Origin: Herminiimonas sp. KBW02
GTDB lineage: Bacteria > Pseudomonadota > Gammaproteobacteria > Burkholderiales > Burkholderiaceae_D
Direction: 5' to 3'
NCBI RefSeq assembly: GCF_003852535.1
Contig: NZ_QAJP01000004.1
Location: 186,001-250,000, forward strand
DNA length: 64,000 nt
Each line of letters starts with the position of its first letter. Positions within the stretch are counted from its first letter, which is position 1. Position numbers and translations under genes: made by a program. This document shows, piece by piece, positions 38,717 to 42,414 of this stretch. The notes under the pieces were generated by a model, which made no database searches, was not told where the DNA came from, and saw only the letters and a program-made list of their open reading frames with translations.

Positions 38717-40177
38717 ATGACTCCATTCGAACCAAATCTCAAAACGCTAGCCGTCGCCCGCGATGTATTGTTGACGCCTTTTGGCCTGGATGAATCCATC
38801 CTGATCAAAACGCTGGGGTCGATGTTTACGCATCGCGTTGACTATGCAGATTTGTACTTCCAGTTCACCAAGAGTGAAGGCTGGAGTCTGGAAGAAGGCA
38901 TCGTTAAGACCGGTAGCTTCTCCATCGACCAGGGTGTCGGCGTGCGCGCCGTATCCGGCGACAAGACCGCATTCTCGTATTCGGATGAAATCTCCGAACG
39001 CGCCTTGCTCGAAGCCGCACAGGCGACGCGTACCATCGCGCGCCAGGGCGCAGGCAAGATCAAGGTAGCGTCGGCGATCCAGCACGCTGGCGGCCGCTCG
39101 CTGTACCTGCCGCATGATCCGCTGACGTCGCTGGATGCAACGGAAAAAGTAAAGCTGCTGGAAAAAATAGAACGTATCGCACGCGCCAAAGATCCGCGTG
39201 TGGTGCAAGTCATGGCTGGCCTCGCTGGCGAGTATGACGTCGTACTGGTGGTACGTAGTGATGGCGTGCTGGCTGCCGATATCCGTCCTCTGGTACGCGT
39301 GTCGATTACCGTGATTGCAGAACAAAATGGTCGTCGTGAAATGGGTTCCAGCGGTGGCGGTGGTCGCTATAGCTATGCCTACTTCGACGATGAATTGCTG
39401 GAAAAATATGCGAGCGAAGCAGTTGCTTCTGCGCTCGTGAATCTGGATTCGCGTCCGGCGCCTGCCGGTCCGATGACCGTGGTGCTTGGCCCTGGCTGGC
39501 CGGGTGTCTTGTTGCACGAAGCCATCGGTCACGGTCTGGAAGGTGACTTCAATCGTAAAGGTTCGAGTGCATTCTCCGGTCGCATCGGCGAGCGTGTCGC
39601 AGCGAAAGGCGTAACGGTAGTGGATGACGGTACGATCGCTGATCGTCGTGGTTCGCTGAATATTGATGACGAAGGCAATCCGACGCAGTGCACTACGCTG
39701 ATCGAAGACGGCATTCTGAAAGGCTATATCCAGGACACCATGAATGCGCGCCTGATGAAAATGCCGGTGACTGGTAATGCACGTCGCGAATCGTTTGCGC
39801 ACCTGCCTATGCCACGCATGACGAACACTTATATGCTGGGCGGGGATAAAGATCCTGCTGAAATCCTGGCGTCGGTAAAGAACGGTTTGTATGCGGTGAA
39901 CTTCGGCGGCGGTCAGGTTGATATCACCAACGGTAAATTCGTATTCTCGGCCAGTGAAGCCTACATGATCGAAAACGGCAAGGTGACTTACCCGGTCAAA
40001 GGCGCCACCCTGATCGGCAATGGCCCTGACGTGTTGAATCGTGTATCGATGATAGGCAATGACATGCGTCTCGACAGTGGCGTGGGCGTGTGCGGCAAGG
40101 AAGGCCAGAGCGTGCCGGTAGGCGTCGGTCAGCCGACCTTGCGTATCGATGGGGTGACAGTGGGCGGTACGGCCTGA
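38717..40177 (+). CDS. tldD: Metalloprotease TldD
   Basis: 486 residues. The zinc motif HEAIGH ([14 protein letters not shown]) is intact, with the downstream Cys of the family nearby ([19 protein letters not shown]). TldD works with TldE/PmbA to degrade unfolded peptides and process modified peptides. TldE is not in this window. A TTGACG sequence upstream could be its -35. Confidence 0.95.
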
Positions 40178-40295
40178 TAGTGTTGGTATTCAGGCCATAA
40201 TTGTTATATCTGTCACGCCTTTTAACCGTTTTGCTTGCGAAACCCACGGATTTATTGCACTATTACCGACAGATAACCGCATTACACCTGAAAAC

Positions 40296-40367
40296 ATGAC
40301 TTCTTCGCGCTTCCAATTTTACTTTTACTTTAGCTATTCCAGCCCAACGGCGGTGGAGAAGCGGTAA
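40296..40367 (+). CDS. Putative aroG leader peptide rich in Phe/Tyr codons
   Basis: 23-codon ORF (ATG 40296, TAA 40365-40367). The peptide starts MTSSRFQFYFYFSYSS and ends TAVEKR: four Phe and three Tyr fall within nine residues, including an unbroken FYFYF. It is followed by a terminator and then by aroG. The GGCGGT near its end can pair with the 5' arm of that terminator. The ribosome site is weak (no clear AGGAG). Composition and layout match classical attenuation leaders such as pheL; assignment is inferred but strong. Confidence 0.75.
   Translation: MTSSRFQFYFYFSYSSPTAVEKR
40349..40365 (+). promoter_or_regulatory. aroG antiterminator arm
   Basis: GGCGGT (40349-40354), with a second copy GCGGT (40361-40365), is complementary to ACCGCC in the 5' arm of the terminator at 40404. 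A ribosome stalled on the Phe/Tyr codons at 40317-40337 leaves it free. A ribosome at the leader stop covers it. Confidence 0.6.
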
Positions 40368-40403
40368 GCGCGCAGGTAAAAAAAGCTTAGACCGAAATTC
40401 TTT

Positions 40404-40437
40404 AAAAAACCGCCCGCGATGGCGGTTTTTTATTTTT
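40404..40437 (+). terminator. Attenuator terminator before aroG
   Basis: AAAAAACCGCC (40404-40414) pairs perfectly with GGCGGTTTTTT (40421-40431) around a six-base loop, then ATTTTT. It lies 29 bases before the aroG ATG and 227 bases after the tldD stop, so it is more likely an attenuator than only the tldD terminator. Confidence 0.85.
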
Positions 40438-40465
40438 GCAGAACAGATTTTGACTGGAGAAAAAC

Positions 40466-41533
40466 ATGCCACGCACAGATGATTTACGGATTCGAGAAAT
40501 GAAAGAACTGACGCCACCATCGCATTTGATACGTGAGCTGGGCATTACCGAAAAAGCAGCAACGACCGCAGCGAATGCGCGCGTCGCCCTGCATCGCATT
40601 TTGCATGGACAGGATGACCGCCTGATGGTGGTGATCGGACCTTGCTCCATCCACGATCCTAAAGCCGCGATGGAATACGCGAACCGCCTGATCAAGGAGC
40701 GTGAGCGTTTCGCTGGTGAATTGGAAATCGTGATGCGCGTGTATTTCGAGAAGCCACGTACCACGGTCGGCTGGAAAGGCCTGATCAACGATCCGTACAT
40801 GGACAATAGCTTCCGCATCAATGACGGTTTGCGTATTGCGCGTGAGTTGCTGTTGAACATCAACGAACTGGGCCTGCCTGCAGGTACAGAGTTCCTCGAC
40901 GTGATCAGCCCGCAATACATCGCCGACCTGATCAGCTGGGGCGCGATTGGTGCGCGTACCACCGAGTCGCAGGTACACCGTGAACTGGCATCCGGCCTGT
41001 CGTGCCCGGTCGGTTTCAAGAACGGAACCGATGGCAACGTGAAAATCGCAGTTGATGCGATCAAGGCCGCATCGCAGCCGCATCACTTCCTGTCGGTGAC
41101 CAAGGGCGGTCATTCAGCGATTGTCTCGACGCTCGGTAATGAAGATTGCCACGTCATTCTGCGCGGCGGTAAAACGCCTAACTACGATGCTGTCAGCGTT
41201 GAGCAGGCATGCAAGGATATCGCTGCAAACGGCCTGGCTTCACGTTTGATGATCGATACCTCGCACGCGAACAGCTCGAAGAAACCGGAAAACCAAATCC
41301 CGGTATGCGCCGATATCGCCAAGCAGGTTGCCGGTGGCGACACCCGCATCGTCGGTGTGATGGTTGAATCGCATCTGGTGGCTGGTCGTCAGGATCTGAT
41401 CCCGGGCAAGGAATTGGTCTATGGCCAGTCCGTCACCGACGGTTGCATTAACTGGGAAGACAGCCTGGGCGTGCTGGAAGGTCTGGCGGAAGCGGTCAAA
41501 CAACGCCGTCACGTCAAGGATCCGGACGCTTAA
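40466..41533 (+). CDS. aroG: 3-deoxy-7-phosphoheptulonate (DAHP) synthase, class I
   Basis: 355 residues; condenses PEP and erythrose-4-phosphate, the first step of aromatic amino-acid synthesis. Conserved VIGPCSIHDPKAAMEYA, RVYFEKPRTTVGWKGLINDP, GARTTESQVHRELASGLSCPVGFKNGT (metal and substrate sites) and DTSHANSSKKPE. Ribosome site TGGAGA. Which amino acid inhibits it cannot be told with confidence; the leader peptide points to Phe and Tyr control of expression. Confidence 0.96.
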   Translation: MPRTDDLRIREMKELTPPSHLIRELGITEKAATTAANARVALHRILHGQDDRLMVVIGPCSIHDPKAAMEYANRLIKERERFAGELEIVMRVYFEKPRTTVGWKGLINDPYMDNSFRINDGLRIARELLLNINELGLPAGTEFLDVISPQYIADLISWGAIGARTTESQVHRELASGLSCPVGFKNGTDGNVKIAVDAIKAASQPHHFLSVTKGGHSAIVSTLGNEDCHVILRGGKTPNYDAVSVEQACKDIAANGLASRLMIDTSHANSSKKPENQIPVCADIAKQVAGGDTRIVGVMVESHLVAGRQDLIPGKELVYGQSVTDGCINWEDSLGVLEGLAEAVKQRRHVKDPDA

Positions 41534-41551
41534 GAGCGCCAAGTCGAAATC

Positions 41552-41585
41552 AAAACGGGCACTGCTTGCAGTGCCCGTTTTTTAT
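41552..41585 (+). terminator. Rho-independent terminator after aroG
   Basis: AAAACGGGCACTG (41552-41564) and CAGTGCCCGTTTT (41569-41581) pair perfectly, followed by T residues. It is nearly identical to the terminator at 42460. Confidence 0.88.
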
Positions 41586-41691
41586 TCTGCGACCGAAAAC
41601 CATGGTTTCCGGCGATTTTTAAGACGTTTAAAGATTGATAATGTCGGGAAACTAATTACACTATGGATTCCCTTATCTTTCCTTCATCACT

Positions 41692-42414
41692 ATGAAAATC
41701 CTCATTACGCTCGCTTGTGCTGTGTGCTTCTCGGGTATCGCTACTGCGGCGACGCAGGAAGATGATGTCAATCGTTATGTGCAGATATTCTCCAGCAGCC
41801 AGACTTTTGATCAGCACGCGGTAGAAGCATTGGCCTGGATGGGCGTTTCGGATCCACGTGTATTCGACGTCGTTGAGCGTCGTGTGCTGGCCGGTGTGGC
41901 ACAGGGCCAGCCTGATAAACACACGAAGAATGAGATCGGACTTTCGATACGCGCGCTGGGCTTCTCCGGGCAGCCTAAGTACAGAGATACCTTGTTGCAG
42001 ATTTCGGCAGATCGCGTCTACGGACGCTACGCCAAAACAGCATTGGAAGATTTACCCGATTACCAGAAATGGAATCCGATCATTTCCAATCGTGCGAACT
42101 TTGATCCTAAATATAGCGATGATGTAAATCGCGTCCTGATCATGCTGCGCTCCGATGATTTTGAATTGAAAAAGATAGGTGCCAAACGTATCTATTTCCA
42201 GAATAAGGATGAGGTATTGCTGGATGCGTTGGTAGAGCAGATCCGTGCAAGCTATCAGTACAGCAATGCACAACGCAGCGATACGATAGCGTGGATGGTC
42301 AAGGCACTGGGCAGCGCCAAACAAGCCAAGTACCGTCCTGTATTGGAAGAGGTCGTTACTTTTACAACCGATCGCAAGATTGCGAGACACGCCAAAGAAG
42401 CTTTGGAAAAGTAA
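41692..42414 (+). CDS. Exported HEAT-repeat-like protein of unknown function
   Basis: 240 residues with a clear signal peptide (MKILITLACAVCFSGIATA, cut near AAT). The mature part is almost all alpha-helical, in units of about 35 residues resembling HEAT repeats (for example VEALAWMGVSDPRVFDVVERRVL and SDTIAWMVKALGSAKQAKYRPVLEEV). No catalytic motif. Probably a periplasmic protein-binding scaffold. It is flanked on both sides by near-identical terminator hairpins, so it is a single-gene transcript. Confidence 0.75.
   Translation: MKILITLACAVCFSGIATAATQEDDVNRYVQIFSSSQTFDQHAVEALAWMGVSDPRVFDVVERRVLAGVAQGQPDKHTKNEIGLSIRALGFSGQPKYRDTLLQISADRVYGRYAKTALEDLPDYQKWNPIISNRANFDPKYSDDVNRVLIMLRSDDFELKKIGAKRIYFQNKDEVLLDALVEQIRASYQYSNAQRSDTIAWMVKALGSAKQAKYRPVLEEVVTFTTDRKIARHAKEALEK

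Follow-up and report, generated by a model that had tools for sequence, protein, structure and literature searches.

The aroG gene of Herminiimonas sp. KBW02 is very probably controlled by a ribosome-mediated transcription attenuator, a reading to which we assign, from the sequence, a probability of about 0.92. The original prediction, made within a stretch of 64,000 nucleotides (the window), took the region in front of the gene for a Phe/Tyr attenuator. This is supported by the conservation of the sensor codons, by computed folds, by the co-fitting of the pairing segments and by the linkage of the element to aroG. The elements are the following.

40235-40263, plus strand: predicted promoter, TTGCGA at 40235-40240, a 17-nt spacer and CACTAT at 40258-40263, a block common to 27 upstream regions.
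40296-40367, plus strand: leader ORF MTSSRFQFYFYFSYSSPTAVEKR, 23 codons, ATG at 40296-40298, TAA at 40365-40367.
40323-40331, plus strand: sensor codons Phe-Tyr-Phe, conserved in a 42-sequence alignment.
40333-40344, plus strand: predicted segment 1, GCUAUUCCAGCC, from the fold of 40329-40366 and the cross-family swap test.
40349-40362, plus strand: predicted segment 2, GGCGGUGGAGAAGC, partner of segment 1 or 3, from the folds and the swap test.
40404-40414, plus strand: segment 3, AAAAAACCGCC, the 5' arm of the terminator, of which 40409-40414 would pair with 40349-40354 in the antiterminator.
40421-40431, plus strand: segment 4, GGCGGUUUUUU, the 3' arm of the terminator, read directly and folded.
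40466-41533, plus strand: aroG, DAHP (3-deoxy-7-phosphoheptulonate) synthase, 355 aa (NCBIfam NF006723, Pfam PF00793).

From these elements we infer the start site, the translation of the leader, the stalling and the response to Phe and Tyr. The RNA would start near 40270, and a ribosome would translate the 23-codon leader during leader synthesis. Under a shortage of charged Phe- or Tyr-tRNA it would stall at 40323-40331 and cover segment 1 (40333-40344), which would leave segment 2 (40349-40362) free to pair with segment 3 ahead of the synthesis of segment 4. With 2:3 formed no terminator would arise, and aroG would be transcribed. When Phe and Tyr are both plentiful, the ribosome would reach the stop codon at 40365-40367 and cover segment 2, 3:4 would form, and transcription would end at about 40431-40437. 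If no ribosome is loaded, 1:2 would form and the terminator too.

The perfect 11-bp terminator claimed for 40404-40431, just 5' of aroG, was confirmed by reading the letters: AAAAAACCGCC at 40404-40414 and GGCGGTTTTTT at 40421-40431 enclose a 6-nt loop and are followed by ATTTTT. It folds at −16.1 kcal/mol (z −4.11 against shuffles), and an equally good terminator was obtained in 0 of 1000 dinucleotide shuffles of 40178-40465. GGCGGT was found at 40349-40354 as predicted, and its pairing with 40409-40414 (2:3) is supported by masked folding and by the swap test described below. The attenuation geometry originally proposed was borne out for 2:3 and 3:4, but the 1:2 hairpin, which the mechanism needs, had been missed. 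The stretch 40329-40366 folds as 40333-40344 with 40349-40362 at −12.3 kcal/mol, and the addition of this pairing completes the classic 1:2 / 2:3 / 3:4 design. Taken as single sequences, 1:2 and 2:3 fold near shuffles (z −1.80 and −1.19).

Folding was then computed with the stretches occupied by a ribosome masked, their extents being an assumed ribosome footprint. With the A site on Phe 40329, Tyr 40326 or Phe 40323 and without segment 4, 2:3 formed (−20.8 kcal/mol); with the ribosome at the stop codon 3:4 formed; and without a ribosome the fold was 1:2 plus 3:4. The predicted switch, from 2:3 upon stalling at the Phe/Tyr codons to the terminator with the ribosome at the stop, was reproduced in this way. 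If segment 4 is included while segment 1 stays masked, the terminator is at equilibrium the lower of the two (−29.8 versus −24.9). Antitermination must therefore be kinetic, that is, a matter of timing. Several features by which an attenuator is judged are found in front of aroG: a short ORF rich in codons for the products of the pathway, an intrinsic terminator between this ORF and the gene, a mutually exclusive antiterminator that shares a segment with the terminator (by computation), and a protector 1:2 masked by the sensor-stalled ribosome (by computation, with weak within-family covariation).

The terminated RNA is predicted to be about 165 nt long, and the excerpts of PMC10117765 and PMC7298713 on rnTrpL/peTrpL in Sinorhizobium offer a precedent for a terminated leader RNA or leader peptide that also acts in trans, attenuation being one of two functions. 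It is nevertheless unlikely that the aroG leader does the same; its peptide is unconserved outside the sensor and the paired segments.

The 23-codon Phe/Tyr-rich leader ORF before aroG had been placed exactly to the base, as re-reading confirmed. When the intergenic region 40178-40465 was shuffled 5000 times with dinucleotides preserved, a leader with at least six aromatic codons in eight arose in 37 shuffles. Two leader peptides searched against NCBIfam and Pfam matched no family. Conservation of the sensor was assessed in 42 sequences, namely the window and 41 of the 47 loci that are not Burkholderia-like among 80 named aroG loci. The codon at 40323-40325 is TTT (Phe) in 41 of the 42, that at 40326-40328 encodes Tyr in 40 and Trp in two, and that at 40329-40331 is TTT (Phe) in all 42; both TAC and TAT are in use for the Tyr of the sensor, which is a synonymous change. 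Six of the 48 not-Burkholderia-like sequences (L014, L075, L037, L039, L040 and L032) stand outside the alignment. L037, L039 and L040 read F-W-F at the sensor and are aromatic at all three places; L032 reads T-Y-F, with Thr in the first place. Non-conservation of the leader codons had been set beforehand as a refuting outcome; what was found is a sensor, F-Y/W-F, nearly invariant in the 42 sequences. The further S-Y pointed out in the leader is present, but its Tyr codon (40335-40337) is not conserved, being Tyr in only 18 of the 42 and otherwise Asn (11), His (6), Asp (3), Phe (2), Ser (1) or Gly (1); this codon sits within the 1:2 stem. As judged from the alignment, it is F-Y-F at 40323-40331 that makes up the conserved sensor, and S-Y is no part of it.

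Downstream of the sensor, the C-termini of the leaders seem to be conserved by clade (SSPTAVEKR; LRPLADREG), as might be expected if the nascent peptide arrested the ribosome on a free amino acid in the manner of TnaC, instead of a response to tRNA starvation. However, the leader frame 3' of the sensor differs in Collimonas, Herbaspirillum and others (KSGKRS versus EKR; L018, L031 and L015 have frame-changed C-termini) while the pairing segments are retained, and arrest by the peptide was rejected because of this shift. The N-terminus and length of the leader are also variable across families, and a biosynthetic gene requires induction at scarcity, not at excess. We consider such arrest highly improbable and keep to stalling on the sensor codons.

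In lineages further removed, the ten codons 5' of segment 2 were counted in 36 diverged elements. Every one of the 36 has Phe, 34 have Tyr and 18 have Trp, with totals of 131 Phe, 64 Tyr and 20 Trp codons; the aromatics of the window's own leader are Phe and Tyr only. These counts suggest that leaders of other lineages may sense Trp.

A check of compensatory base pairs had been proposed, and its outcome was divided: the segments co-fit across families, but covariation within the family is weak and absent from 3:4. Formal covariation was run inside the own family, with a slid structure and shuffles as controls. For 1:2, two pairs changed on both sides, and 31 of 500 shuffles scored as high; a structure slid by +3 still paired 74.8% and had a higher covariation score; for 3:4 no covariation was detected within the family. 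The weakness arises because the element hardly varies there, and since the within-family analysis was uninformative, a cross-family swap test was used. Native halves were compared with halves swapped among 36 elements less than 75% identical, with 20,000 permutations. For 1:2 the mean was −12.39 with native halves and −11.21 with swapped ones, and 33 of 20,000 permutations came as low as the native mean; for the 2:3 duplexes the means were −20.26 (native) and −18.13 (swapped), with 0 of 20,000 as low. These counts are not exact probabilities, because related elements are not independent. In the control, in which the following 20 nt were used, 18,399 of 20,000 permutations reached the native total. 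The effect on 1:2 is moderate: taken singly, the native hairpin beat 90% of swaps in 5 of 36 elements with the 5' half kept and in 6 of 36 with the 3' half kept.

The finder that supplied these elements requires GGCGG, at least four aromatics in the ten preceding codons and a fixed terminator pattern, and its recovery is 70/80 for the named loci, 55/69 for the model hits and 22/100 for the sampled regions. The swap test, the codon counts, the promoter block and the analyses of the Shine-Dalgarno (SD) sequence and of the −10 spacing are based on finder-recovered elements only, and the counts of 77/80, 65/69 and 41/42 given below come from a detector independent of it.

The start codon of aroG, ATG at 40466, is preceded by GGAG. 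AroG is a type-I DAHP synthase (592 bits to NF006723, cut-off 568; Pfam PF00793 also matches) and is 99% identical to the AroG of Herminiimonas contaminans (L073). No class-II DAHP synthase was found in the genome, and the only other DAHP_synth_1 match there is KDO-8-phosphate synthase. Therefore aroG is the only DAHP synthase found, and one gene must serve all end products. Behind aroG, a hairpin with a T run at window positions 41550-41583 is likely the aroG terminator; two sub-threshold Rfam matches at the same place look like chance.

Leader and terminator lie in the intergenic region between tldD, which ends at 40177, and aroG. As 68 of the 110 loci tested have tldD no more than 1500 nt upstream, the terminator might simply serve to end the tldD transcript, with the ORF there by accident. 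This candidate was rejected as extremely improbable, since the element is kept in 41 of 42 loci without tldD upstream (the exception is L075) and so belongs to aroG. In addition, it stands just before aroG, its sensor codons stay aromatic, and leader plus terminator occurred in 0 of 2000 shuffles.

Of the 80 named aroG loci, 77 passed the automatic test for leader and terminator; L014, L046 and L075 failed. L046 has the aromatic run and the terminator with the frame shifted, and the frame is shifted in L066 too. L014 and L075 are without the attenuator; in L014 a mere 36 nt separate aroG from the stop of an ORF that matches the tldD end, which leaves no place for the element. An RNA model built from 56 elements matched 110 of 116 own-family genomes (E up to 0.01). 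A search of the own genome with E up to 1 gave only the aroG site and, weakly, the terminator of that site on the other strand. The Phe leader is among the described Rfam leader families. A search of window positions 39000-42000 against Rfam gave four matches at E ≤ 1, none of which attains the gathering score, and in 15 relatives nothing at the element reached that score, the sole hit being SRP RNA elsewhere in L117. That another signal, a riboswitch or an RNA-binding protein, works the same terminator is hardly credible, given sub-threshold matches alone on its side, no Rfam family at gathering score on the element, and a conserved upstream feature that is an in-frame run of aromatic codons.

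For the attenuator to work, the leader RNA would have to include the leader ORF. Invariant in the 27 aligned upstream regions is CTTG, mostly in the form CTTGCCAA; a CACTAT/TATAGT-like hexamer follows after about 17 nt, and both lie 5' of the leader. In the window the distance from the end of this hexamer to the leader ATG is 33 nt, and transcription is predicted to start near 40270. As far as the sequence allows a judgement, a start downstream of 40367 seems unlikely, because this promoter-like block precedes the leader. A plain consensus promoter scan did not list the shared block; its only site, 40174-40201, is different from it. An SD-like sequence is absent before the leader in 32 of the 36 diverged elements, the window included. 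The spacing of the −10 element was examined in 20 diverged elements outside the own family and the Burkholderia-like loci. TAnnnT ends 7-10 nt 5' of the leader ATG in 12 of these 20 (L165-L168, L179, L192, L200, L212, L213, L221, L222 and L230), for which a simple binomial that ignores relatedness gives a chance of about 3e-10. With such spacing the leader RNA would begin at or very near the AUG, and it is therefore probably leaderless in these lineages.

The reach of the element was examined in two ways. First, the RNA model matched 104 of 399 genomes of the order (E up to 0.01). Among the 69 hits inspected, the remainder being mostly weaker, 65 have aroG directly downstream, all of them with leader and terminator; 64 of the 65 carry at least five aromatics in eight codons and one carries four. 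L145, L149, L151 and L154 are model hits without aroG. Secondly, a sample independent of the model gave 110 aroG-type matches in 85 of 110 genomes of the order, of which 100 upstream regions were taken, the locus of the window and the nine weakest matches being set aside. A strict test for leader and terminator was passed by 23 of the 100; L212 and L221 fell just short of it, through four aromatics in the leader or through the length of the loop, and for the remaining 75 the test found no leader and terminator pair. The pair was found in 0 of 2000 shuffles and on 0 of 100 reverse strands. By itself, an aromatic leader was found in 26 of 100 regions, versus 21 of 2000 shuffles and 3 of 100 reverse strands. 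The attenuator is not universal before aroG in the order.

The element was first considered as one of betaproteobacterial aroG, but its range is wider: the attenuator stands before aroG in further families of the order, in a single family beyond the order (f63) and in three families of another class. Among 274 genomes of the class outside the order (E up to 0.001), aroG-linked hits were found in two genomes of family f63, one of them with the leader MNAARASFYFWYYFPKPLAEEGLRSP; in a sample of 40 f63 genomes there were full-length hits in eight, with aroG downstream in 8 of 8. Among 249 genomes of the phylum, 12 hits fell in families f244, f247 and f251 of the other class, which we infer to be Alphaproteobacteria. 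Ten of the 12 were inspected; aroG lies downstream in 10 of 10 and a leader is visible in nine (L262, L263, L265, L267, L268 and L270-L273, aroG genes with the same kind of attenuator). In this other class, aroG and its attenuator may have been transferred or inherited together. A further hit, L274, appears to be a chance match, no aroG being seen there.

On a tree of 88 AroG proteins, made by a quick method from hand-chosen rows with a midpoint root, the presence and absence of the element need 12 changes, with 0 of 500 shuffles as low; at least six of the 12 lie on starred branches. AroG of the f63 carriers, and of those in the other class, is placed close to distant paralogues. This pattern fits an old element with many losses, and repeated gain or transfer is also compatible with it. 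That the aroG attenuator is an old and widespread proteobacterial module, which gauges two or all of the three aromatic amino acids to control entry into the shikimate pathway, came to different classes with aroG by transfer or descent, was lost many times and in several lineages is read from a leaderless RNA starting at the AUG of the leader, is a tentative view to which we give somewhat less than an even chance.

The aroG element adds to the known leader-peptide transcription attenuators, among which its breadth, its proposed pooled sensing at the entry point and the probable leaderless geometry in several lineages stand out. The multi-amino-acid attenuators of ilvGMEDA and the thr operon also let one leader read several end products, but with branched-chain or Thr/Ile codons and in other pathways. 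The enterobacterial pheL leader has Phe only; pheL/pheA is likewise ribosome-mediated attenuation in the Phe pathway, but governs a terminal branch and not the entry enzyme. Enterobacterial pheM/pheST shares a Phe/Tyr-rich leader, alternative hairpins and a terminator with the aroG element, but its gene is a tRNA synthetase and its codons are mostly Phe. The rnTrpL/trpL of Sinorhizobium meliloti is an aromatic leader-peptide attenuator too, and its leaderless leader ORF resembles the geometry proposed for several other families with the aroG element, whereas it is a Trp attenuator of trpE with known trans functions. In the excerpts available of the respective papers, the pheST attenuator is established (PMC1262725), pheA is under attenuation in E. 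coli (PMC5343134), the trpL leader ORF is leaderless in Sinorhizobium and forms the Trp attenuator of trpE (PMC10117765), and putative attenuators of tyrA operons are tabulated (PMC1173090, Table 7). No paper on an aroG attenuator was among the matches listed in a search of openly licensed literature; Vitreschak 2004, Panina 2001 and Merino's database may hold predictions. The strings of the leader peptides were not found in openly licensed literature either.

Carbon is committed to the whole set of aromatic amino acids at the DAHP synthase step, and in E. coli aroG is under TyrR control. According to the excerpt of PMC5343134, E. coli has three DAHP synthase isoenzymes, and the repressors TyrR and TrpR act on the pathway. 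In Herminiimonas sp. KBW02 control of the single enzyme seems to lie with an attenuation that reads codons and pools Phe with Tyr; other lineages may bring Trp into the pool as well. From this come a testable hypothesis on the balancing of three end products in bacteria that have a single DAHP synthase, and a handle for aromatic production in betaproteobacteria. The element is also a compact RNA, and since its sensor has switched between Phe/Tyr and Phe/Tyr/Trp codons, the specificity can be tested by comparing natural variants.

The model also led to genes other than aroG. In two f222 genomes (L264 and L266) it found a leader (14 letters, not shown) before pheS, called by NCBIfam in L264 and by eye in L266, which we take to be the known pheM; its recovery is an unplanned positive control for a model built on aroG. 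In L159, of family f156 of the class, a hit with E 9e-4 has the leader MIHNLPQIGRIYYFRPAGSVCLLKT and a G+C-rich terminator. The gene that follows is by eye MFS transporter-like and not aroG, and L159 is perhaps an attenuated amino-acid transporter.
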